Source: Synechococcales cyanobacterium GL140_1_metabinner_5_sub
GTDB lineage: Bacteria > Cyanobacteriota > Cyanobacteriia > Cyanobacteriales > Chamaesiphonaceae
Length of the DNA stretch: 40,129 nucleotides
Reading direction: 5' to 3'
NCBI GenBank assembly: GCA_025359065.1
Contig: JANYHM010000095.1
Location: 1 to 40,129 of the forward strand
The notes under the pieces: model-generated
The model's database searches: none
What the model was told of the DNA's origin: nothing
Seen by the model: only the letters and a program-made list of their open reading frames with translations
Shown here: piece by piece, positions 6,653 through 35,335 of the stretch
How positions within the stretch are numbered: position 1 is the first letter of the stretch
Layout: the number at the start of each line of letters is the position of its first letter
Position numbers and translations under genes: made by a program

Positions 6653-6778
6653 ATGGCAAGAACTAAACGACTGCAACTTTTGCTGACGGAGCAAGAATTT
6701 GAAAGTCTCAAAAAATATGCTGAATCAAAGAATTTATCAGTCTCCGAGATTCTCAGGGATTACATCAAAAGCCTTTGA
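6653..6778 (+). CDS. Small ribbon-helix-helix (CopG/Arc-like) protein
   Basis: This 41-residue protein starts at ATG 6653, beginning MARTKRLQLLLTEQEFESL and ending SVSEILRDYIKSL. A short beta strand (KRLQLLL), then a helix and a second helix beginning at the SVSEILRDYI turn is the classic ribbon-helix-helix pattern of CopG/Arc DNA-binding proteins. GGAG sits only two bases before the ATG, so spacing is tight. An upstream in-frame ATG at 6545 would add 36 residues unlike the family, so I reject it. No toxin gene follows. Instead the downstream sequence looks like the end of an IS605/TnpB-type element, and similar small RHH genes accompany such elements, so it may be an element passenger. Confidence 0.6.
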   Translation: MARTKRLQLLLTEQEFESLKKYAESKNLSVSEILRDYIKSL

Positions 6779-7003: not shown

Positions 7004-7627
7004 CTAACGTCGTAATAATTTTCCCTGTGCATGTGCTGATCGAATAACATTGAGATTACTGGTGAACATTTGAATATTTGGAACAGTTGCGTAATCCATG
7101 TCATCGGTGATAATTCGGATTTGTTCGGTACCTGCTCGACTTATTGTTTCAAGTATTAGCAAATCATAGCCATCAACTGCTTGGGATTGGAAACGAGTAA
7201 GGGCAGCTTTGGCAACTTCATCATTAATGGTTAGATCAGCAGATATGGCGATCGATTCTATTTGCTTCCAAGTCGATTCTACTTCTGCGGCAACCTTTAA
7301 TCGTTCATCAGGTAAATTATGTCGATATTCTTTGAGCTTTAAATCTAGGCTATTATCTCGATTGTATATATCTTTTTCAATTCTTTCTATTACGCTAGTG
7401 ATTTCTGCTAGTGCTAGCACTGAATAGCTGAGAATTCCGCCTTGTATTAGTACACTAAATATATAGTTCGGGTAATCCCTGAGCTGATAGGATTTTGCTG
7501 TGAAATTAGCATTTGCATATGCTTGCCAGAGCCAAGCGTTAGTATCTGCCAAAAAAATGTCGCTTTCCCTCGGCGTGTCATTCGTAATATCAACAATATC
7601 AGCCCGGACGATAAGACTTATGCTCAT
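7004..7627 (-). CDS. PIN-like nuclease domain protein
   Basis: This 207-residue protein carries the acidic pattern of PIN nucleases: D28 in FLADTN, E75 in LALAEI, D152/D155 in VDGYDLLIL and D175/D176/D178 in ITDDMD. The order and surrounding hydrophobic strands fit the fold, with a longer helical insert (80-125) than VapC toxins have. PIN domains cut single-stranded RNA, so an effector role is likely but unproven. It is the last gene of the operon that starts with the type IIG enzyme, only 4 bases after the DUF4325-like gene. There is no small VapB-like antitoxin beside it; the STAS/GHKL genes upstream occupy that place. Confidence 0.65.
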   Translation of the reverse strand: MSISLIVRADIVDITNDTPRESDIFLADTNAWLWQAYANANFTAKSYQLRDYPNYIFSVLIQGGILSYSVLALAEITSVIERIEKDIYNRDNSLDLKLKEYRHNLPDERLKVAAEVESTWKQIESIAISADLTINDEVAKAALTRFQSQAVDGYDLLILETISRAGTEQIRIITDDMDYATVPNIQMFTSNLNVIRSAHAQGKLLRR

Positions 7628-7631
7628 TCTT

Positions 7632-7979
7632 CTAGCAGTTTGCTACATAATCTTCTATTGCGCCATCAACAGCCTGTCTATAGCTTGGCTGGGTGTAATA
7701 GCGTTCGGAGTTGTCCATAACTCGTCTCAGGATATTCTGACCATCACTACTTATTCCAGTGATTTTTATTTGATGGTTCAAATCACTGCGAGATAAGTCT
7801 TTTAACAGTTGACCCATGGCTACGTTGAAAAATGCAGTGGCGAAGATGTTAACTTTGCTAAAATCCAATTCGATGTTCTCTCCTGCACTAAGACGGGGAA
7901 AAATTTGGTCATAGAGTTCTTGCCCGCTATTGGGAGCAATGGCATATTGCCCAGTAATTTCGTAGATTTCATAGCGCAT
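7632..7979 (-). CDS. STAS-like DUF4325-type protein
   Basis: This 115-residue protein has a STAS-like alternation of strands and helices: GENIELDFSKVN, then IFATAFFNVAMGQLLKDL, then HQIKITGIS. The pattern of a strand ending in D-F-S followed by a helix with F-F-N matches the DUF4325 group as I know it. STAS-like proteins usually act as binding partners of GHKL kinases/ATPases in partner-switching circuits. The gene lies 17 bases behind the GHKL ATPase gene and 4 bases before the PIN gene, so the three are surely co-expressed. No phospho-acceptor serine can be assigned with certainty. Confidence 0.6.
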   Translation of the reverse strand: MRYEIYEITGQYAIAPNSGQELYDQIFPRLSAGENIELDFSKVNIFATAFFNVAMGQLLKDLSRSDLNHQIKITGISSDGQNILRRVMDNSERYYTQPSYRQAVDGAIEDYVANC

Positions 7980-7996
7980 AAGTTATCTCCGGAATG

Positions 7997-8887
7997 TTAA
8001 AACCACGGTGTGTCTGTATTTTGCTCCTCCGATGCCAATTGGTAATAGGATTCATCGCACTTAAGGGCAATGTTAATCAGTGTTCCCTTAAAGTTAACAG
8101 ATCTTATCTCAGATATTACTTCATTATCCTTAATGTTTACATATCCTTCATTGCTGAAAATTTTAAGGTTGCCTTGATTGCTCGATATAAAATCTTGCAA
8201 AAAGTCAAGCCCCATGCCTCTCCCAATTGTGCTCTTAGCAGTTGTGTTTCCAGGCTTTAAGGCCCATTCAATAGACTGAGCTGGGTCTAACAAGGAATTT
8301 TCCGTCATAGACTGAACGTTGTAGGGGATGCCTTGCCCAAAATCAACAATGGTCAGGTGTAACTCTTTTTTATTGGGATAGTGTTGACCACAACTAAATA
8401 CGCCGATCGAGGACTGACTGTGCTCGAAGGCATTAGCGTAGATTTCCCAAACTTTGCCTGCAATCAAGTTCCGCAAAGATGGGCTAATATTTACCCAACC
8501 TCTACCCAGCCACCTATTTAGCAGGTAATCCATAATTACAGCTTCATCTTGCTTGTCATCCTTGCGATAGGGCACAGAGTTTCCATTCCAAGACTGTGAA
8601 CCTTCCCCAAAACTAGATAGGAACCCATTTTGATTAAGGTTAGTGCGGATTCTGTCCGTTAAGGTATCCCACTTAAAAGTCAGTTTTCCTCCTTGCTTTT
8701 CTGTATGGTACACCAGTCCTCCTAAGAAGGCAACGCCAACATGGCTGAGAAAATTACAGTCTTGGAAATCAAGTTCTAGATGATTGTCAGTTATGAGGTG
8801 TTGATTAATTTTCTGCCATATATCGAGTAGGAGATGAAAACAGTTGGAGGTGTGGTATATCTTGGGGATTTTCAGGGTGACTGTCAT
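7997..8887 (-). CDS. GHKL ATPase with N-terminal STAS-like domain
   Basis: Residues 1-80 look like a STAS domain (LELDFQDCNFLSHVGVAFL). Residues 130-290 form a GHKL (histidine-kinase-like/Hsp90-type) ATPase: N-box EIYANAFEHS at 148-157, G1 box DFGQGIP at 182-188 and G2 box GRGMGL at 222-227. There is no dimerisation/phosphoacceptor histidine domain, so it is not a classical sensor kinase. It resembles anti-sigma-factor kinases or MORC-like switch ATPases. It starts 19 bases downstream of the type IIG gene and is followed at once by a STAS-like protein, an arrangement that suggests a partner switch in which ATP state governs binding. Which protein it controls is unknown; the PIN protein is the natural candidate. 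Confidence 0.7.
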   Translation of the reverse strand: MTVTLKIPKIYHTSNCFHLLLDIWQKINQHLITDNHLELDFQDCNFLSHVGVAFLGGLVYHTEKQGGKLTFKWDTLTDRIRTNLNQNGFLSSFGEGSQSWNGNSVPYRKDDKQDEAVIMDYLLNRWLGRGWVNISPSLRNLIAGKVWEIYANAFEHSQSSIGVFSCGQHYPNKKELHLTIVDFGQGIPYNVQSMTENSLLDPAQSIEWALKPGNTTAKSTIGRGMGLDFLQDFISSNQGNLKIFSNEGYVNIKDNEVISEIRSVNFKGTLINIALKCDESYYQLASEEQNTDTPWF

Positions 8888-8906
8888 TTGGCTGATTAAA
8901 TACTCC

Positions 8907-11900
8907 CTATGCCGTTTGTTGGAGATCGGCGTATTGCCAGTAGATGATATTTGCTTCTTCGCGGTGAATGAGGAGGCCGAACCATTCTAATCGATCGAGA
9001 TTTTCACTAATAGCATCAAGTTTTTTCTGAGTGTTTTTGCCAGTAAATTGGTTGGCAATTTGTAGTGCTGTCCATTCGCCGCTGCTGGTGCGCATTAGGT
9101 CACGGATGGCGGCGAGTTGGGCTTTGGCGGCGATCGGCCATTTTTGTTGTTCGACGGGGGTAACTATGGTTTCGTCGATTTCGCTGGTGTCGATGATTTC
9201 GGTTGGGGTGGCGGTGGTTTGGTTGGGGTTTTGGTATTCGGGGCGGAGCCAGCGGATCAGGCCGTTGCGTTCTTCGGCGGCGCGTTCGGCGTTGAGGGCA
9301 ACAAGGCGTTCGAGGATGGTTTCGTTGATGTCGGTGCCGGTTTGTTGGGCTGCCCAGAGGTCTTGCCAACCGTATGATTCAAAGACGGCTTGGTCTATTT
9401 GGTCATGGATTTGTTTGAGGGTGGAAACTAGGGCTTTGTTGTTGTATGCTCGATCGGCTTCACTAAATTCTTGACCTGCTCGGAGTTTTTCGAGCAGGTT
9501 GTACATGCCGGTGATGGTTATTTTGGGGTGGGCGGCTTGGACTTGTTTGCGATGGGTGTCGAGGCGATCGCCAAGTTCACGGATTTTTTGTTTTTGCTCA
9601 GAGGTAGGATCTGGAAAGGGATATGGATCGAAGCATTTCGTTTTTGAATAAACAGGATCATTCCCAACGCCATTTCTTCCACCTGTCGGTAATGACCAAT
9701 TGATATGAATAGAGCTGGAAAGAACACCTAAATAATACAAATCTTCAGAGGCGAAAACAGCAAGCTTCACATCAGGTAATACTTCTAGAGTATTTAAGGA
9801 TACGAATACTCTATGTTTAGCAGTTTCTACAGTCGCAATATATTTTTTGATACCATCAAAAGCATCACGCATTTGGATTCTTGGCTCAGCAAAAACCCAC
9901 CAAATATCTTTATAAGACTTCCTTTTTTGAACAGCTCTAATGGGGAAAACTCTATCTTTAATCCATTGGTAAATGCCTGGGTATTTTATTTGAACTTCTT
10001 TCTCACTAAAGTTGTACAAGTCAATTACTTTAAGATTTCTCGGTCTATCTGTAATATCCTTACCTTTATATATTAATTTAATTACTTCATTTGAACAGGG
10101 ATCTTGCTTAAGAAAATCTAATGTTTGTTCTTCTGACAAGAAAAATCCCTCACCTAATACTGTTACTCCTTTATGTGCAATACCTAAGTTAGAAACCAAG
10201 GGTAAAGCTGAAAAAATATCTGCTCCTATTCTTAAATTAGAGAAGATCAATCCAGTATTTCTTAAGAACCTTGGAATAGTAAATCCTTCTTCCATTATAC
10301 TTTCATCAGCTACTATGGAAAGGCATCCTTCATTTCTCCCAAATTTAGCTACAGTTATGGCAATTCTAACTGCGGCACCGTCAGTACTATCAATCCACGG
10401 GTGATCGGGAATGGCAAAAGAAATTGATATAGATTCAAGATACTTATCAATAACTCTTCTGTTGAAATTCTGGGTGATTGTATTTGTAGTTATAAAGCCA
10501 AATGATTTAATTTTTTGTTTATCTAGAAGATCTCCTGCTGTGTTCCACCAAAACATTACAAAATCGCAAGCTTCAGGAACACCTGGATAAGATTTTCTCA
10601 GGCATTTAACGTACTCATCACCTAATGAATTCTTCATCTTCTTGTCACCAATAAATGGTGGATTAGACACTATATAATCCGCCTCCGGCCACTCCGCCGC
10701 CCTCGCATTTAAATAACGATAAATCACCACTTCGTCACTAGGATCTGGCACCTCCTCACCCGTAACTACATGCTTCATCATCCGCCCACCCCACCGAGTC
10801 CTTACCTCCCCGGTCTTCGCATCCACATCCGGCTCCCGGCCATCATAAGCCAACACCGCATCCCGACACTCAATATTGCCAAACGCCTGCAACACCGGGT
10901 CTGGCGAAGCCGCATTACCATAGCGCTTAAAATACCACTGCAAATAACCAATCCAAATCACCAGCTCCGCGATCGCCGCCGCCCGAGGATTAATTTCAAT
11001 CCCCAAAAACTGCGAAGGATCAACCTGCTCAAAACCAAGCTGCACATTCCCCGCCACATCCACCAACCGCGTCAACGCCTCCTGCTCCAACCCCTTCAAC
11101 AAATCCAACGTCACATACAAAAAATTCCCCGTCCCACAAGCCGGATCTAAAATCTTCACCCGCCGCAAATTCGCCAAAAACCCCTGAATCTCCTGCACCG
11201 CCTTCTCCCGCTGCTTAGCCGTCGGCTCCTTACCCTCCCCAGCATCCAACAGCCTGCGCAACTCCAGCTCCACCTCATCCCACTGCTGCCGCAACGGCTC
11301 CATCACCACCGGACGCACCAGCCGCTCCACATACGATCGAGGCGTATAATGCGCCCCCAGCCGACTGCGCTCCTTTTTTTCTAGCGCCCGCTCCAACAAA
11401 GTCCCAAAAATTGCCGGTTCCACCTGGCTCCAATCCTTCGCCGCTGCTGCATACAGCACCTCTAACTGCTCCTTAGGCAAATCAAAAGCCGTCGCCTCCG
11501 TAAAAAAGCTGCCATTAAACCGCAAAATCTGCTCAAACCCAAAAGTCCCACCGGTATTCATCGTCTGCCACAGATTTTCAATCTCTGTCCGAAAAGTCTG
11601 AGGGTTCGGAATCCATCGATCGCGCAACGCCTTAGTAAACACCTCGCCCTTCAACAGCTCCACATCTTCCGCAAACATTGTAAAAATGCAGCGCATCAAA
11701 AAACTCGCCGCCTGCTGCGGTTCATACCCCTGCTCCTCTAACCACCGGGACAACTTCGCCAACTCCGCTGCTACCTCTCGCGTCACCCTTGCCCGATACT
11801 TCTCGGGGTTTAGCGACTGGGGATCACTAAAAATCGCCACAAATCGATCGAAGATCTCCACCTGACCCAAATCCTTCAAATTAATCTGCTGCCGTGCCCC

Positions 11901-12359
11901 ATAACTCCCATACTCTCCACTAAAACCCTCCCACACCTCAAAATGCGACCCAATATCACAGGTAATCAAAAACGGTGGCAGCGACGGAACAGTACGATTG
12001 TAAGCATAAGACTTGGCCTGGTTAAACGCTCGCTGCATCGTATCCCGATAGCCCTGCGTACCCCGCTTCCCATGACCCTTAGCCGAATTAGTGCTGCCCT
12101 GCTTGGCCTCAATTAAAAAATGCCCCTCCTTGTAAAAATCTGCAAAGCGCGTAGTCTCAGCTTTTTCATTAAAAAACTTGATATTTTTATCAAAACAATA
12201 TCGATCGCCCTCCATACTGCCTTTCGGTGGTGGGGCATCCACGGCCAACGCCACACAAAGATCGCCAAAAAAAGTCTGATAGTTTGCCCGCTCGTTGCCC
12301 TCAGAACCCAGCCATTTATTCAGAAAATCTTGCACCCGCTGGCGATCGGCACTATCCAT
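8907..12359 (-). CDS. Type IIG restriction-modification enzyme (MmeI-like)
   Basis: A single 1150-residue polypeptide combines cutting, methylation and DNA recognition. The N-terminus has a PD-(D/E)xK-type nuclease site: FADFY (D74) and FLIEAKQG (E84, K86). A helical spacer follows, then an N6-adenine methyltransferase with motif I LDPACGTGNF near 405 and motif IV SNPPF near 568. The target-recognition region spans about 600-920. The C-terminal 60 residues (GEWTALQIANQF ... LDRLEWFGLLIHRE) look like a winged helix, an addition to the usual plan. It is the first gene of a four-gene operon. DNA encoding about 560-920 is much more AT-rich than both flanks, suggesting exchange of the recognition domain. 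The reading frame is intact. Confidence 0.82.
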   Translation of the reverse strand: MDSADRQRVQDFLNKWLGSEGNERANYQTFFGDLCVALAVDAPPPKGSMEGDRYCFDKNIKFFNEKAETTRFADFYKEGHFLIEAKQGSTNSAKGHGKRGTQGYRDTMQRAFNQAKSYAYNRTVPSLPPFLITCDIGSHFEVWEGFSGEYGSYGARQQINLKDLGQVEIFDRFVAIFSDPQSLNPEKYRARVTREVAAELAKLSRWLEEQGYEPQQAASFLMRCIFTMFAEDVELLKGEVFTKALRDRWIPNPQTFRTEIENLWQTMNTGGTFGFEQILRFNGSFFTEATAFDLPKEQLEVLYAAAAKDWSQVEPAIFGTLLERALEKKERSRLGAHYTPRSYVERLVRPVVMEPLRQQWDEVELELRRLLDAGEGKEPTAKQREKAVQEIQGFLANLRRVKILDPACGTGNFLYVTLDLLKGLEQEALTRLVDVAGNVQLGFEQVDPSQFLGIEINPRAAAIAELVIWIGYLQWYFKRYGNAASPDPVLQAFGNIECRDAVLAYDGREPDVDAKTGEVRTRWGGRMMKHVVTGEEVPDPSDEVVIYRYLNARAAEWPEADYIVSNPPFIGDKKMKNSLGDEYVKCLRKSYPGVPEACDFVMFWWNTAGDLLDKQKIKSFGFITTNTITQNFNRRVIDKYLESISISFAIPDHPWIDSTDGAAVRIAITVAKFGRNEGCLSIVADESIMEEGFTIPRFLRNTGLIFSNLRIGADIFSALPLVSNLGIAHKGVTVLGEGFFLSEEQTLDFLKQDPCSNEVIKLIYKGKDITDRPRNLKVIDLYNFSEKEVQIKYPGIYQWIKDRVFPIRAVQKRKSYKDIWWVFAEPRIQMRDAFDGIKKYIATVETAKHRVFVSLNTLEVLPDVKLAVFASEDLYYLGVLSSSIHINWSLPTGGRNGVGNDPVYSKTKCFDPYPFPDPTSEQKQKIRELGDRLDTHRKQVQAAHPKITITGMYNLLEKLRAGQEFSEADRAYNNKALVSTLKQIHDQIDQAVFESYGWQDLWAAQQTGTDINETILERLVALNAERAAEERNGLIRWLRPEYQNPNQTTATPTEIIDTSEIDETIVTPVEQQKWPIAAKAQLAAIRDLMRTSSGEWTALQIANQFTGKNTQKKLDAISENLDRLEWFGLLIHREEANIIYWQYADLQQTA

Positions 12360-31786: not shown

Positions 31787-34417
31787 GTGAACAGCCAACT
31801 TCAATGCGATCGGCTTGATCGAGACTTGATCGATCGGGGATATTCTAGCCTCAATCCAATCCAAAGAATTATTTTGAGCGGATCTCTGGCGGGCGAGTCC
31901 TATCCAGAAATCGCGGGTCAATCGGGCTATGCTGTGGAATACCTGCGAGAAGTTGGTGCACAGCTTTGGAAAGTGCTTTCACAGCTATTTGATAAAACCG
32001 TTACCAAGCGAAATATTCAACAAGTCCTGCAAGGTAAGACATTAGTCGTCACGACTCCAGAACCACAATATGTTTGGGATGAAGCGATCGATGTATCTGT
32101 TTTTTATGGCCGCACCCCAGAACTTCAGATGCTATCTCAATGGGTGATAATTGATCGATGCCGATCGATTTCTATTCAGGCAATTGGCGGGATGGGAAAA
32201 ACATCGCTGGCCATGAAGCTGACACAGCAAATCGCTCCAGAATTTGAATTCGTGGTGTGGCGATCGCTGCGCAATGCTCCACCATTGACAGCGCTACTCA
32301 CCGATTTGGTAATCCTATTTTCCCGGCAACGTGAGACTAATCTACCAACTGATTCATTGGCAATGCTCGATCATCTAATGTCCTACTTACGGCAAAGTCG
32401 CTGTTTATTGGTGTTGGATAACGTTGAGTCAATTTTGATGAGCGGGAGTTCGCATCAGTATTTAACGGGTTATGAAGGCTATGGAGAGTTATTTCGACAG
32501 GTAGCCGAAGGCACTCATCAAAGCTGCTTATTATCGACTAGTCGTGAGCAAATCTCGGAGATCTCTAGTTTTGCCGGTCATAGTCTGCCAGTGCGAATTT
32601 TAGCCCTGAATGGGCTACCGATTGAAGATGGGGTGAATGTGTTGGATGACAAGGGTTTATATATCACCATTGATCTCGCTCAAGATTTGATTGATCTCTA
32701 CCATGGCAACCCACTAGCGCTAAAGATTGTCTCCACTTCAATTCTGGAGCTATTTGATGGTCAAGTCGAGGCATTTTTAAAGCAGGGGGTGGCGGTTTTT
32801 AATGGGATAAAAGTGTTGTTGGAGAAGCAATTCGATCGACTTTCTCCGATCGAAACTCAAGTGATGCACTGGCTAGCTATTCGCCGGGAATGGGTGTCGC
32901 TGAAGGATCTACAAGGTGATTTTTTTCCGGCAATTACTCTAGCTCAACTGCTAGAAGCGCTGGAGTATCTGCGGGGTCGATCGCTCATTGAGCAGAAAGC
33001 AGGGCGATTTACCCAGCAGCCGGTGGTGATGGAATATGCCACCGATCAATTACTAGCTACTGTTTGCAGAGAAATTAGTCAGCAGCATCCCCAAATTTTG
33101 TTGCAGTATGCGCTGATGCAGGCTCAAGTGCCAGAATATCTGCGAGATAGCCAGGTTAGAACAATTATCGCGCCCTTACTCAGGATGCTAGAGAGTAATT
33201 TAGGTGGACAAGGAATTGTGATTCACTATCTGCGGCAACTCCTCACTGCATTTTCTGGCAATGAGGCGATGGCAGCCAGCTATGGGGCGGGTAATTGCCT
33301 CAATTTACTCTGTCAATTACAAGCTGACCTACAAGGGTTAGATCTGTCCGGCCTACAGCTCAGACAAGCTGATTTGCGCAATGCCAACCTAGCCCAGGTT
33401 AATTTGACTGGCTGTAACCTCTCCACTGTGCTATTTGCCGATGTGATTGGTGATGCTTATAAAGTTTGCCTCAGCCCAGATGATCGGCTTTTGGCCAAGG
33501 GCGGCAGTGATGGCAAAATTGCAGTGTGGGAAGTTCAGAGCGGTCATTACCTGCTGAATATTCCAGCTCATGAGGGGAATGTGGTGGGCTTGGTCTTTAC
33601 CCACGATAGTCAAGCTCTTATTAGTTCGAGTTTCGATCGCAAGATTGCAATTTGGGATGTGGCTAGTGGAGCCTGTTTGCGATCTTGGCAGTTGGCTACA
33701 ACCACCTATCGAATTACCTTAAGCCACGATGGTACAATCTTGGCTACCAGCAGTAACAGTGGAGATGTGTTGCTTTGGGACATCGCTACAGGTAAACAGG
33801 TAGCCACATTATCAGGTCATAGTTTGACGGCGGTGGATGTGGCTTTTCATCCTAACGATCGGCTCCTGGCAAGCTGTAGTTTCGATGCTTCGATCAAAAT
33901 TTGGGATTTAGAGACAGCGAAATGTCTCCAAACTCTCGTTGGTCACACGGGCATTATCACGGCGATCGATTTTAATGCCTTGGGCACTCATCTGGTGAGC
34001 AGTAGCTTTGATAAGTCGATTAAAATTTGGCAGGTTGATTCTGGTGAATGCCTACAAACCCTAGAACAACATTCCAATGCTGTGATTGATGTGGTATTTA
34101 GCCCTACTGGAGATCGGGTGATCAGCGCTAGCCATGATTTGACTGTCAAAATTTGGGATATGCTGCCATCTGGCCATTGGGAATGTACTCAGGTTTTACA
34201 GGGTCATGACAATACTATTTGGTCGATCGCCCTAAATTCTACCGGAGACATGTTGGTCAGTAGCGATCAAAGTGGTGTGCTGATGTTTTGGCAGTTGCCC
34301 ACGGGACTTTGCCTTAAAACTTTCCGCAGTGTTTCTAAGGCCGTTAAGTCACTGGCCTTTCATCCCGATGCGGATTTGTTGGCCAGCAGTTACGAAGATC
34401 GCCATATTCGCCTGTAG
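31787..34417 (+). CDS. NB-ARC ATPase with pentapeptide and WD40 repeats (N-terminal part)
   Basis: STAND ATPase of 876 residues starting at a GTG. Residues 10-80 form a helical N-terminal domain with an HTH look (RIILSGSLAGESYPEIAG). The NB-ARC domain has P-loop IGGMGKTS at 133-140 and Walker B CLLVLDNVES ending near 214. A winged-helix/helical arm follows, with pentapeptide repeats about 510-550 (LDLSGLQLRQADLRNANLAQ) and then WD40 blades. Translation ends at TAG 34415-34417 exactly where a blade would have the Trp of its W-D pair (HIRL, stop, DLKTDQCLQ). The frame then stays open for another 306 codons, so this is one WD40 gene broken by a nonsense change. Whether the short product works is unknown. 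Confidence 0.8.
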   Translation: MNSQLQCDRLDRDLIDRGYSSLNPIQRIILSGSLAGESYPEIAGQSGYAVEYLREVGAQLWKVLSQLFDKTVTKRNIQQVLQGKTLVVTTPEPQYVWDEAIDVSVFYGRTPELQMLSQWVIIDRCRSISIQAIGGMGKTSLAMKLTQQIAPEFEFVVWRSLRNAPPLTALLTDLVILFSRQRETNLPTDSLAMLDHLMSYLRQSRCLLVLDNVESILMSGSSHQYLTGYEGYGELFRQVAEGTHQSCLLSTSREQISEISSFAGHSLPVRILALNGLPIEDGVNVLDDKGLYITIDLAQDLIDLYHGNPLALKIVSTSILELFDGQVEAFLKQGVAVFNGIKVLLEKQFDRLSPIETQVMHWLAIRREWVSLKDLQGDFFPAITLAQLLEALEYLRGRSLIEQKAGRFTQQPVVMEYATDQLLATVCREISQQHPQILLQYALMQAQVPEYLRDSQVRTIIAPLLRMLESNLGGQGIVIHYLRQLLTAFSGNEAMAASYGAGNCLNLLCQLQADLQGLDLSGLQLRQADLRNANLAQVNLTGCNLSTVLFADVIGDAYKVCLSPDDRLLAKGGSDGKIAVWEVQSGHYLLNIPAHEGNVVGLVFTHDSQALISSSFDRKIAIWDVASGACLRSWQLATTTYRITLSHDGTILATSSNSGDVLLWDIATGKQVATLSGHSLTAVDVAFHPNDRLLASCSFDASIKIWDLETAKCLQTLVGHTGIITAIDFNALGTHLVSSSFDKSIKIWQVDSGECLQTLEQHSNAVIDVVFSPTGDRVISASHDLTVKIWDMLPSGHWECTQVLQGHDNTIWSIALNSTGDMLVSSDQSGVLMFWQLPTGLCLKTFRSVSKAVKSLAFHPDADLLASSYEDRHIRL

Positions 34418-35335
34418 GACTTGAAGACCGATCAATGCCTACAGAGTATTTCGGGTCATACCATGGCGGTTTCGCGGGTGGCATTTTCTCCTACCGCTCA
34501 GCTTTTGGTGAGTGGGGGAATGGATGGTGTCGTAAAGCTTTGGGATGTAGTTAATCAGGTGCGACTGCGAGAGCAGCCCCAAGTACTTGGTTCTAAGTCT
34601 GGTTTGGTGACAACGGTAGCTTTCCATCCTTCTGAAGCGATGGTCGCAGCCGGTGGTGTGGATAACGTGCGGATCTGGAATTATCAGCACGGGGAGTTAT
34701 TGCTGACCCTGGATCGATCGGCTATTGGTGATCTGGCGTTTCATCCTACGGGGCAATATTTAGCGACAACCAGCCATGAACCAGCGATCGATATTTGGGA
34801 TCTGCAAACTGGCGAATGTTGTCAGACTTTGATCGGTCATCAGAGTGAAAACTGGACGGTAGCTTACCATCCCCAGGGAGATCTGCTGGCTAGTGGTGGA
34901 GAGGATAATGAAGTCCGGTTGTGGCATCTTCCTAGTGGAGACTGTCGGGCGGTGCTCAAAGGACATTCGGCGGCAATTTCTTGTGTGGCCTTTAGTCCAG
35001 ATGGTCTTTATTTGGTTAGCACTAGTAAGGATCGGACTGTGCGGGTTTGGGTGGTGGCTACGGGTGAATGTATCCGCACCTCAACTAACCATACGGATTT
35101 GGTGAATTTTGTGGTGTTTCATCCCGACCCCGATCGGCTGTTAATGGCTACTTGCAGTCATGATGAAACGATCCGCCTGTGGGATACAGATTTTTGGATT
35201 TGTGTGAAGGTGTTACGTCCACAGCGGATGTATGAGGGCATGAATATTACAGGTGTAACAGGGCTGACGACAGCGCAGTTGATGGCTTTGAGGGAGTTGG
35301 GAGCGATCGAATCGGGGGATGATCAGTCAGCGTAG
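34418..35335 (+). pseudogene. C-terminal WD40 part of the interrupted NB-ARC gene
   Basis: The same frame continues for 305 residues after the [18 protein letters not shown], then six to seven more WD40 blades (for example [18 protein letters not shown]) and the typical end [18 protein letters not shown]. That terminal motif is the usual end of the family, so the original protein was about 1182 residues. A TTG at 34421 could restart translation, but no good ribosome site is seen, so I treat it as the separated tail. Readthrough or a sequencing error are alternatives. Confidence 0.75.

Follow-up and report, generated by a model that had tools for sequence, protein, structure and literature searches.

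Four tightly packed minus-strand genes of Synechococcales cyanobacterium GL140_1_metabinner_5_sub, encoding an MmeI-like restriction-modification (R-M) enzyme, a GHKL ATPase with a STAS-like N-terminus, a free STAS-like protein and a PIN nuclease, raise the question of whether they form an undescribed defence system, as an original prediction made from the DNA alone had proposed, or a known module in a new setting. They lie in a stretch of 40,129 nucleotides (assembly GCA_025359065.1, contig JANYHM010000095.1), here termed the window, which represents the entire 40-kb contig and belongs to a 3.9 Mb genome with one VapS. Here we identify the last three genes, from their sequences, as VapKSC, an already named system joined in this locus to a type IIG enzyme rather than a new one; the claim that no named system has this composition was mistaken, since homology, gene order and key residues all lead to VapKSC. 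We consider it highly probable that the locus represents a cyanobacterial VapKSC trailing a type IIG enzyme, in which restriction would act first and a phospho-switch arrest of growth second. What is new here is the R-M gene directly upstream of vapKSC on the same strand, together with VapSC pairs that lack VapK.

Identification of the trio as VapKSC

VapKSC was named by Chambers et al. (June 2026; PMC13373217) as a module of a GHKL kinase (VapK), a STAS antitoxin (VapS) and a PIN toxin (VapC), and what we cite from that work, here and below, refers to the portions of its text available to us. In the Escherichia system VapC is toxic unless it carries D28A, VapS is an antitoxin that acts through its C-terminal region and rescues cells from VapC, and S48E VapS supports neither rescue nor co-purification (PMC13373217). 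The operon confers about 2-log protection against phage Bas42, which is lost with D28A, S48A or VapK F54A, and the structure of the VapS-VapC complex has been solved as PDB 9z7o (PMC13373217).

The window carries three adjacent genes in the order vapK, vapS, vapC, the same order as in the homologous genes of E. coli JNE25-001. Its VapC matches the Escherichia VapC chain of 9z7o over residues 2-205 of 207 (E 1.7e-36), is 38% identical to VapC of E. coli JNE25-001, and displays the acidic residues D28, E75, D152, D176 and D178, of which Asp28 occupies the published catalytic position. VapS, comprising a STAS domain (Pfam DUF4325, 1.1e-14) and a short C-terminal region, matches the Escherichia VapS chain of 9z7o (E 1.4e-15) from residue 7 to residue 110 of its 115; its residue 48 is a threonine that aligns with the published acceptor Ser48 and falls within the 'serine or threonine' given for the acceptor (PMC13373217). 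VapK is 42% identical over 290 amino acids to its E. coli JNE25-001 counterpart, begins with a STAS-like part followed by the GHKL domain, and has E148, N152 and H156 invariant across the alignments made; Pfam and alignment found no N-terminal helix-turn-helix (HTH). Window VapK Phe54 stands within the motif VAFLGG, and the same phenylalanine is residue 57 in E. coli JNE25-001.

On Pfam alone these calls are weak, with VapK below the cut-offs for HATPase_c (1.6e-4), STAS_2 (0.0066) and STAS (0.0076), and VapC below that for PIN (0.053). They become firm because VapKSC relatives match, namely the 9z7o VapC chain, the E. coli VapK, and the E. coli VapC, which itself matches Pfam PIN above the cut-off (1.1e-6). 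Confidence in an AlphaFold2 model of VapK was modest, and Foldseek matched it weakly to GHKL ATPases.

The window trio and Escherichia VapKSC are thus alike in gene order, domain content, the HTH-free VapK, the short VapS C-terminal region, Ser/Thr at VapS 48 and VapC Asp28; the window system differs in being cyanobacterial, in having Thr rather than Ser at position 48, and in its placement behind a type IIG gene. With VapBC it shares a PIN toxin held by an antitoxin, although here a kinase-controlled STAS protein takes the place of VapB. CapK-CapS likewise has a GHKL kinase with a STAS part whose target is a STAS protein, and its genes often follow R-M genes; however, an HTH lies at the N-terminus of CapK and a winged HTH at the C-terminus of CapS, a repressor of transcription (PMC13373217), and neither HTH was found in the window pair, in which the 115-residue VapS has no domain beyond the STAS-like one. 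The published description of VapKSC (PMC13373217) and the matches to 9z7o led us to reject an undescribed defence system; in the literature searched, the name VapKSC appears in that one paper, and the DefensePredictor PIN systems DS-3 and DS-5 were, on the available parts of their description, set aside as different.

The remaining features of the locus (Table 1) agree with the original prediction, whose four packed genes are borne out by the open reading frame (ORF) calls: all four frames are open with ATG starts, separated by 19, 17 and 4 bases, and a crude scan of the minus strand between them found no terminator-like site. Gene 1 contains the N-terminal nuclease, spacer, methyltransferase and target-recognition parts of MmeI-like type IIG enzymes (MmeI_N 8.3e-20, MmeI_hel 6.1e-15, MmeI_Mtase 3.5e-30, and MmeI_TRD 5.1e-6, the last at 26.4 bits slightly under its cut-off of 27). 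It also carries an EAK motif at residue 84, presumably of the nuclease, as well as DPACGTG at 405 and SNPPF at 565-569, which we take to belong to the methyltransferase. No tested feature distinguishes the protein from this enzyme class, to which PADLOC also assigns it.

DISARM comprises a helicase and partner genes (drmA, drmB and drmC). PADLOC, run on the four-gene unit and 10 other window ORFs, matched DrmA only to the GHKL part of VapK (residues 143-279, 36 bits); among the best 25 of 40 matches, the IIG protein scored far lower with DrmMI methylase models than with its own IIG model, and VapS and VapC had none, such that a DISARM set was not found. Components of DISARM or BREX (DrmA and PglX matches in PADLOC and NCBIfam) were rejected, only GHKL or methyltransferase stretches having matched.

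Table 1. Coordinates of the four-gene unit and of the predicted acceptor codon in the window.
Feature	Position	Strand	Basis
MmeI-like type IIG restriction-modification enzyme, 1150 aa	8907..12359	-	Pfam; PADLOC REase_MTase_IIG, 1375 bits; motifs
VapK, STAS-like N-terminus and GHKL kinase domain, 296 aa	7997..8887	-	Pfam; alignments; AlphaFold2/Foldseek
VapS, STAS antitoxin (DUF4325), 115 aa, C-terminal region present	7632..7979	-	Pfam; 9z7o match; alignments
VapC, PIN nuclease toxin, 207 aa	7004..7627	-	9z7o match; alignments; acidic residues
VapS Thr48 codon, equivalent to Escherichia VapS Ser48	7836..7838	-	alignments; Ser48 role in the available text of PMC13373217

Linkage of vapKSC to restriction-modification genes

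To count upstream neighbours we dropped loci whose VapS DNA is identical to that of another locus (L033, L035, L036, L037, L038, L055) or that hold VapC ends only (L039, L040), which left 43 loci with a VapK trace; four of these end at a contig edge, and the other 39, with the window and genome G296, make 41. In 6 of the 41, as a raw count, the gene immediately upstream of vapK is a same-strand R-M gene. Besides the window, these comprise L125, in which a IIG protein 71% identical to that of the window is encoded 13 bases from vapK; L054, L111 and L136, in which HsdS follows HsdM upstream of vapK; and G296, where IIG codons 1-247 immediately precede vapK on contig C139 and codons 927-1150 follow straight after vapC on contig C83. 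Because IIG codons flank both sides, across an assembly break within vapK, the vapKSC of G296 appears to be embedded in a gutted IIG gene. The stretches concerned are L037:1608-3383 and L175:45-1177, and the IIG remnant on the downstream side carries, besides a DUF559 domain, a repeated GC-rich tract.

Eight flank ORFs carry a methyltransferase-like motif, and the four kept as R-M all lie upstream of vapK and on its strand. The ORF of L108, which has no PADLOC match and looks like ribonucleotide reductase, was set aside, as were, by eye, those of L119 (HemK-like), L122 and L129. Since PADLOC covered 10 neighbour genes and the motif scan is blind to stand-alone nuclease or specificity genes, the neighbour count is a lower bound. 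An HsdR-like gene, judged by eye, stands three genes upstream in L132. Among 27 loci with no VapK trace and a visible upstream gene, no same-strand R-M gene was recognised in that position; one locus without a VapK trace, L030, has an HmaC-like gene on the opposite strand.

A unit of type I R-M genes and vapKSC recurs in G340 and G408 and, decayed, in G654, with HsdM 92-98% identical and HsdS divergent, and the VapC tree joins L125 with G296 (L053) as its sister and leaves the window without a settled placement. The six R-M-linked loci are therefore not independent, given that the type I cases share HsdM and that two of the others are sisters. The IIG-vapKSC units of the window genome and of G424 stand in different surroundings, a point in favour of IIG and vapKSC having moved together. 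Overall, the link between R-M genes and vapKSC is repeated but loose. For published vapKSC loci, 103 of 289 lie within 10 kb of a defence gene, and 88 of 443 capKS pairs lie immediately downstream of R-M genes, for which DNA damage made by restriction has been proposed as a possible activator of the kinase (PMC13373217); the window shows for VapKSC the layout seen for capKS.

Distribution of the trio

With VapS as query, 24 of 386 genomes of the phylum were matched, and a VapS profile search of 388 genomes of the order found matches at E <=1e-4 in 71, the weaker of them including other DUF4325 proteins. From the genome collection the VapC query returned 13 loci, every one in a record with a cyanobacterial name. 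VapC is near-complete in 11, read in two frames in two of these, and VapS accompanies it in all 11, as befits an antitoxin; the other two retain the VapC 3' end only, one at a contig end. Across 56 loci with full VapC, VapK is missing in 19 and broken in 11, the break in L053 being a contig end. The trio also occurs on a Deinococcus gobiensis plasmid, and in E. coli, where it adjoins prophage tail genes and where DNA near-identical to vapC of JNE25-001 was present in 2 of 5426 genomes. Two viral contigs hold it complete, L189 with helicase, integrase and terminase genes and L190 with filamentous-phage-like genes (both sets judged by eye). This recurrence, as full trio or as STAS-PIN pair, across cyanobacteria, a Deinococcus plasmid, E. 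coli and viral contigs is more than chance.

Searches of IMG/VR gave three loci with VapC and one with VapK, and no GenBank phage was matched by the L189 VapC. Plasmid searches gave no match with VapC, six marginal matches with VapS, and six records with VapK, one being that of Deinococcus. The viral or prophage-associated copies are vapKSC at L189:4730-6618, L190:173-2132 and L195:5666-7525 and a partial VapC at L191:1-525, settings hinting at use against superinfecting phages.

Kinase-less VapSC pairs and the acceptor residue

A tree was built from 61 rows with near-complete VapC, after L133b and L138b had been dropped as duplicates. VapS residue 48 is Ser or Thr in all 40 rows with a VapK trace; in the 21 rows that lack VapK it is Ser in 11 and Pro, Ala or Trp in 10, an association with a Fisher value of 4e-6 when shared descent is ignored. 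On this quick tree the kinase state changes 10 times and the acceptor 5 times. Several kinase-less loci possess other features instead: a TIGR04255-type gene overlaps vapS in L060 and L124 (the L060 protein having been tested), a 229-aa protein accompanies VapSC in L052, and VapS bears an N-terminal extension in L130 and L134, L131 likewise having a long open frame. Such VapSC pairs with Pro or Ala at the acceptor were recorded at L060:11573-13679, L124:8573-10679, L052:6204-8101, L130:8823-10174 and L134:8746-10088. No mention of kinase-less variants occurs in the available portions of PMC13373217.

Two further groups were observed. Trp or Pro occupies the acceptor position in divergent two-gene VapSC pairs at L139:9136-11102, where two pairs stand in tandem, and in L138, L140 and L142; these possibly represent a plain STAS-type toxin-antitoxin family. 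At L045:7500-9942 the gene directly upstream of vapS encodes a protein of 704 residues (696 in L109) that includes a weak YraN-like nuclease stretch. This gene overlaps vapS in L045, and so does its counterpart in L050, a 105-aa end; no vapK or vapC trace was found in these three loci, and their acceptor is Pro (L045, L109) or Ser (L050).

Proposed order of action: restriction first, arrest second

Being homologous, the window trio is expected to act as Escherichia VapKSC does. At rest, VapS would bind VapC and block its RNase activity; a DNA-damage signal, which in the published model is single-stranded DNA (ssDNA; PMC13373217), would activate VapK, and the activated kinase would phosphorylate VapS at residue 48, the threonine of the window protein. 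VapS would then release VapC, which would cut RNA and stop growth. Given this gene arrangement, a likely source of the signal would be breaks that the restriction enzyme or the phage makes in DNA. The original prediction had anticipated much of this, in that gating of the PIN nuclease by a GHKL-STAS protein and a free STAS protein, ending in growth arrest, matches the published VapKSC model (PMC13373217). It had cast the trio as a back-up for when restriction fails; it is plausible that restriction itself triggers the switch, and an arrest so triggered fits as well. This reading is based on homology, conserved residues, gene order and repeated placement behind R-M genes, and it is from these that we infer phosphorylation, RNA cutting, the ssDNA trigger and the coupling to restriction in the window organism.

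A number of observations weigh against this reading. The function of VapKSC is known experimentally from Escherichia, the cyanobacterial copies being known from genes alone, and activation of Escherichia VapK by ssDNA was not directly testable in the published work, which likewise gives no direct kinase assay of VapK (PMC13373217). The equation of window Phe54 with Escherichia F54, a putative ssDNA-binding residue, depends on how the window protein itself is numbered, and a residue other than Phe occupies the position in the copies from Deinococcus, L064, L065 and L190. No more than three of the six linked loci (the window, L054 and L125) look intact in both their R-M genes and vapKSC. Of the others, L111 has a shortened HsdM and, beyond an intervening ORF, an HsdS that is split; L136 lacks vapC and retains a fragment of vapK; and the G296 IIG gene is a remnant. 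Of 388 genomes of the order, 53 carry IIG relatives (two candidates scored per genome), and in 2 of these vapKSC is adjacent (by eye). For the kinase and acceptor, independent pairs never run the opposite way and are too few for significance. Finally, 35 of the 41 immediate upstream genes were not recognised as R-M, many of them looking by eye like housekeeping genes. The restriction link that had been proposed is right in part, with an R-M gene recognised at six loci; a trio usually lying away from defence genes, named at the outset as grounds for abandoning the idea, is half borne out at the gene immediately upstream.

An alternative, to which we give somewhat less than an even chance, is that VapKSC is a free-standing stress or addiction module for which the IIG neighbourhood is a permissive landing site beside a mobile gene. 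Many relatives lie between ordinary genes (arfB, uvrB, psaB, dnaE, infB and atpG-like products, by eye), vapKSC is often decayed, IIG relatives rarely carry it, and no more than half of the R-M-linked units look intact. A free-standing module is harder to reconcile with the shared strand and upstream position of all four flank R-M methyltransferase genes, with the IIG-vapKSC units in the different surroundings of the window genome and G424, and with the recurring type I unit. A transcription switch of the CapKS type, controlling the IIG gene or the operon, is improbable: among described systems CapKS stands closest to VapK-VapS, and it shares the position downstream of R-M genes (PMC13373217), yet its characteristic HTH domains were not found in the window proteins, and the IIG gene lies upstream of the GHKL-STAS pair, not downstream. 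Less probable still is a sigma-factor partner switch beside an unrelated PIN gene, for although partner switches of the SpoIIAB/SpoIIAA type use GHKL and STAS proteins, as does the window pair, every near-complete VapC locus from the VapC query has an adjacent VapS, and Escherichia VapS and VapC form a solved complex. The published text likewise draws the GHKL-STAS comparison (PMC13373217).

More tentatively, and in our view unlikely as a whole, restriction-coupled VapKSC may form a two-stage defence and, in parallel, the VapSC pair may have parted repeatedly with its kinase in cyanobacteria, coming under a different input. DNA ends or gaps that the type IIG or type I enzyme encoded upstream leaves on invading DNA would make VapK release VapC, so that one operon would cut first and arrest the cell second. 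The kinase-less forms would have lost the acceptor (to Pro, Ala or Trp), some having taken on the TIGR04255-type or 229-aa partner or a new N-terminal part.

Surroundings of the locus in the window

The four-gene unit is flanked by a dUTPase gene upstream and a Mur-ligase-like gene downstream (Pfam). Between vapC and the latter, positions 6653-6778 (+) encode a 41-aa ribbon-helix-helix-like peptide with Pfam scores below cut-off, the DNA around which is single copy except for two short matches. At 31787-35335 (+) two genes match part of the PADLOC HEAT-ARM_XIII model and probably encode HEAT-type repeats rather than defence proteins. A promoter and terminator scan of the window performed no better than on shuffled sequence, and an Rfam search of the window matched no family.

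Implications

Placed directly behind a restriction enzyme in cyanobacteria, VapKSC offers a compact test of restriction-triggered abortive arrest. Its kinase-less relatives are natural variants that bear on how far control of a STAS-bound PIN toxin needs a phospho-switch.

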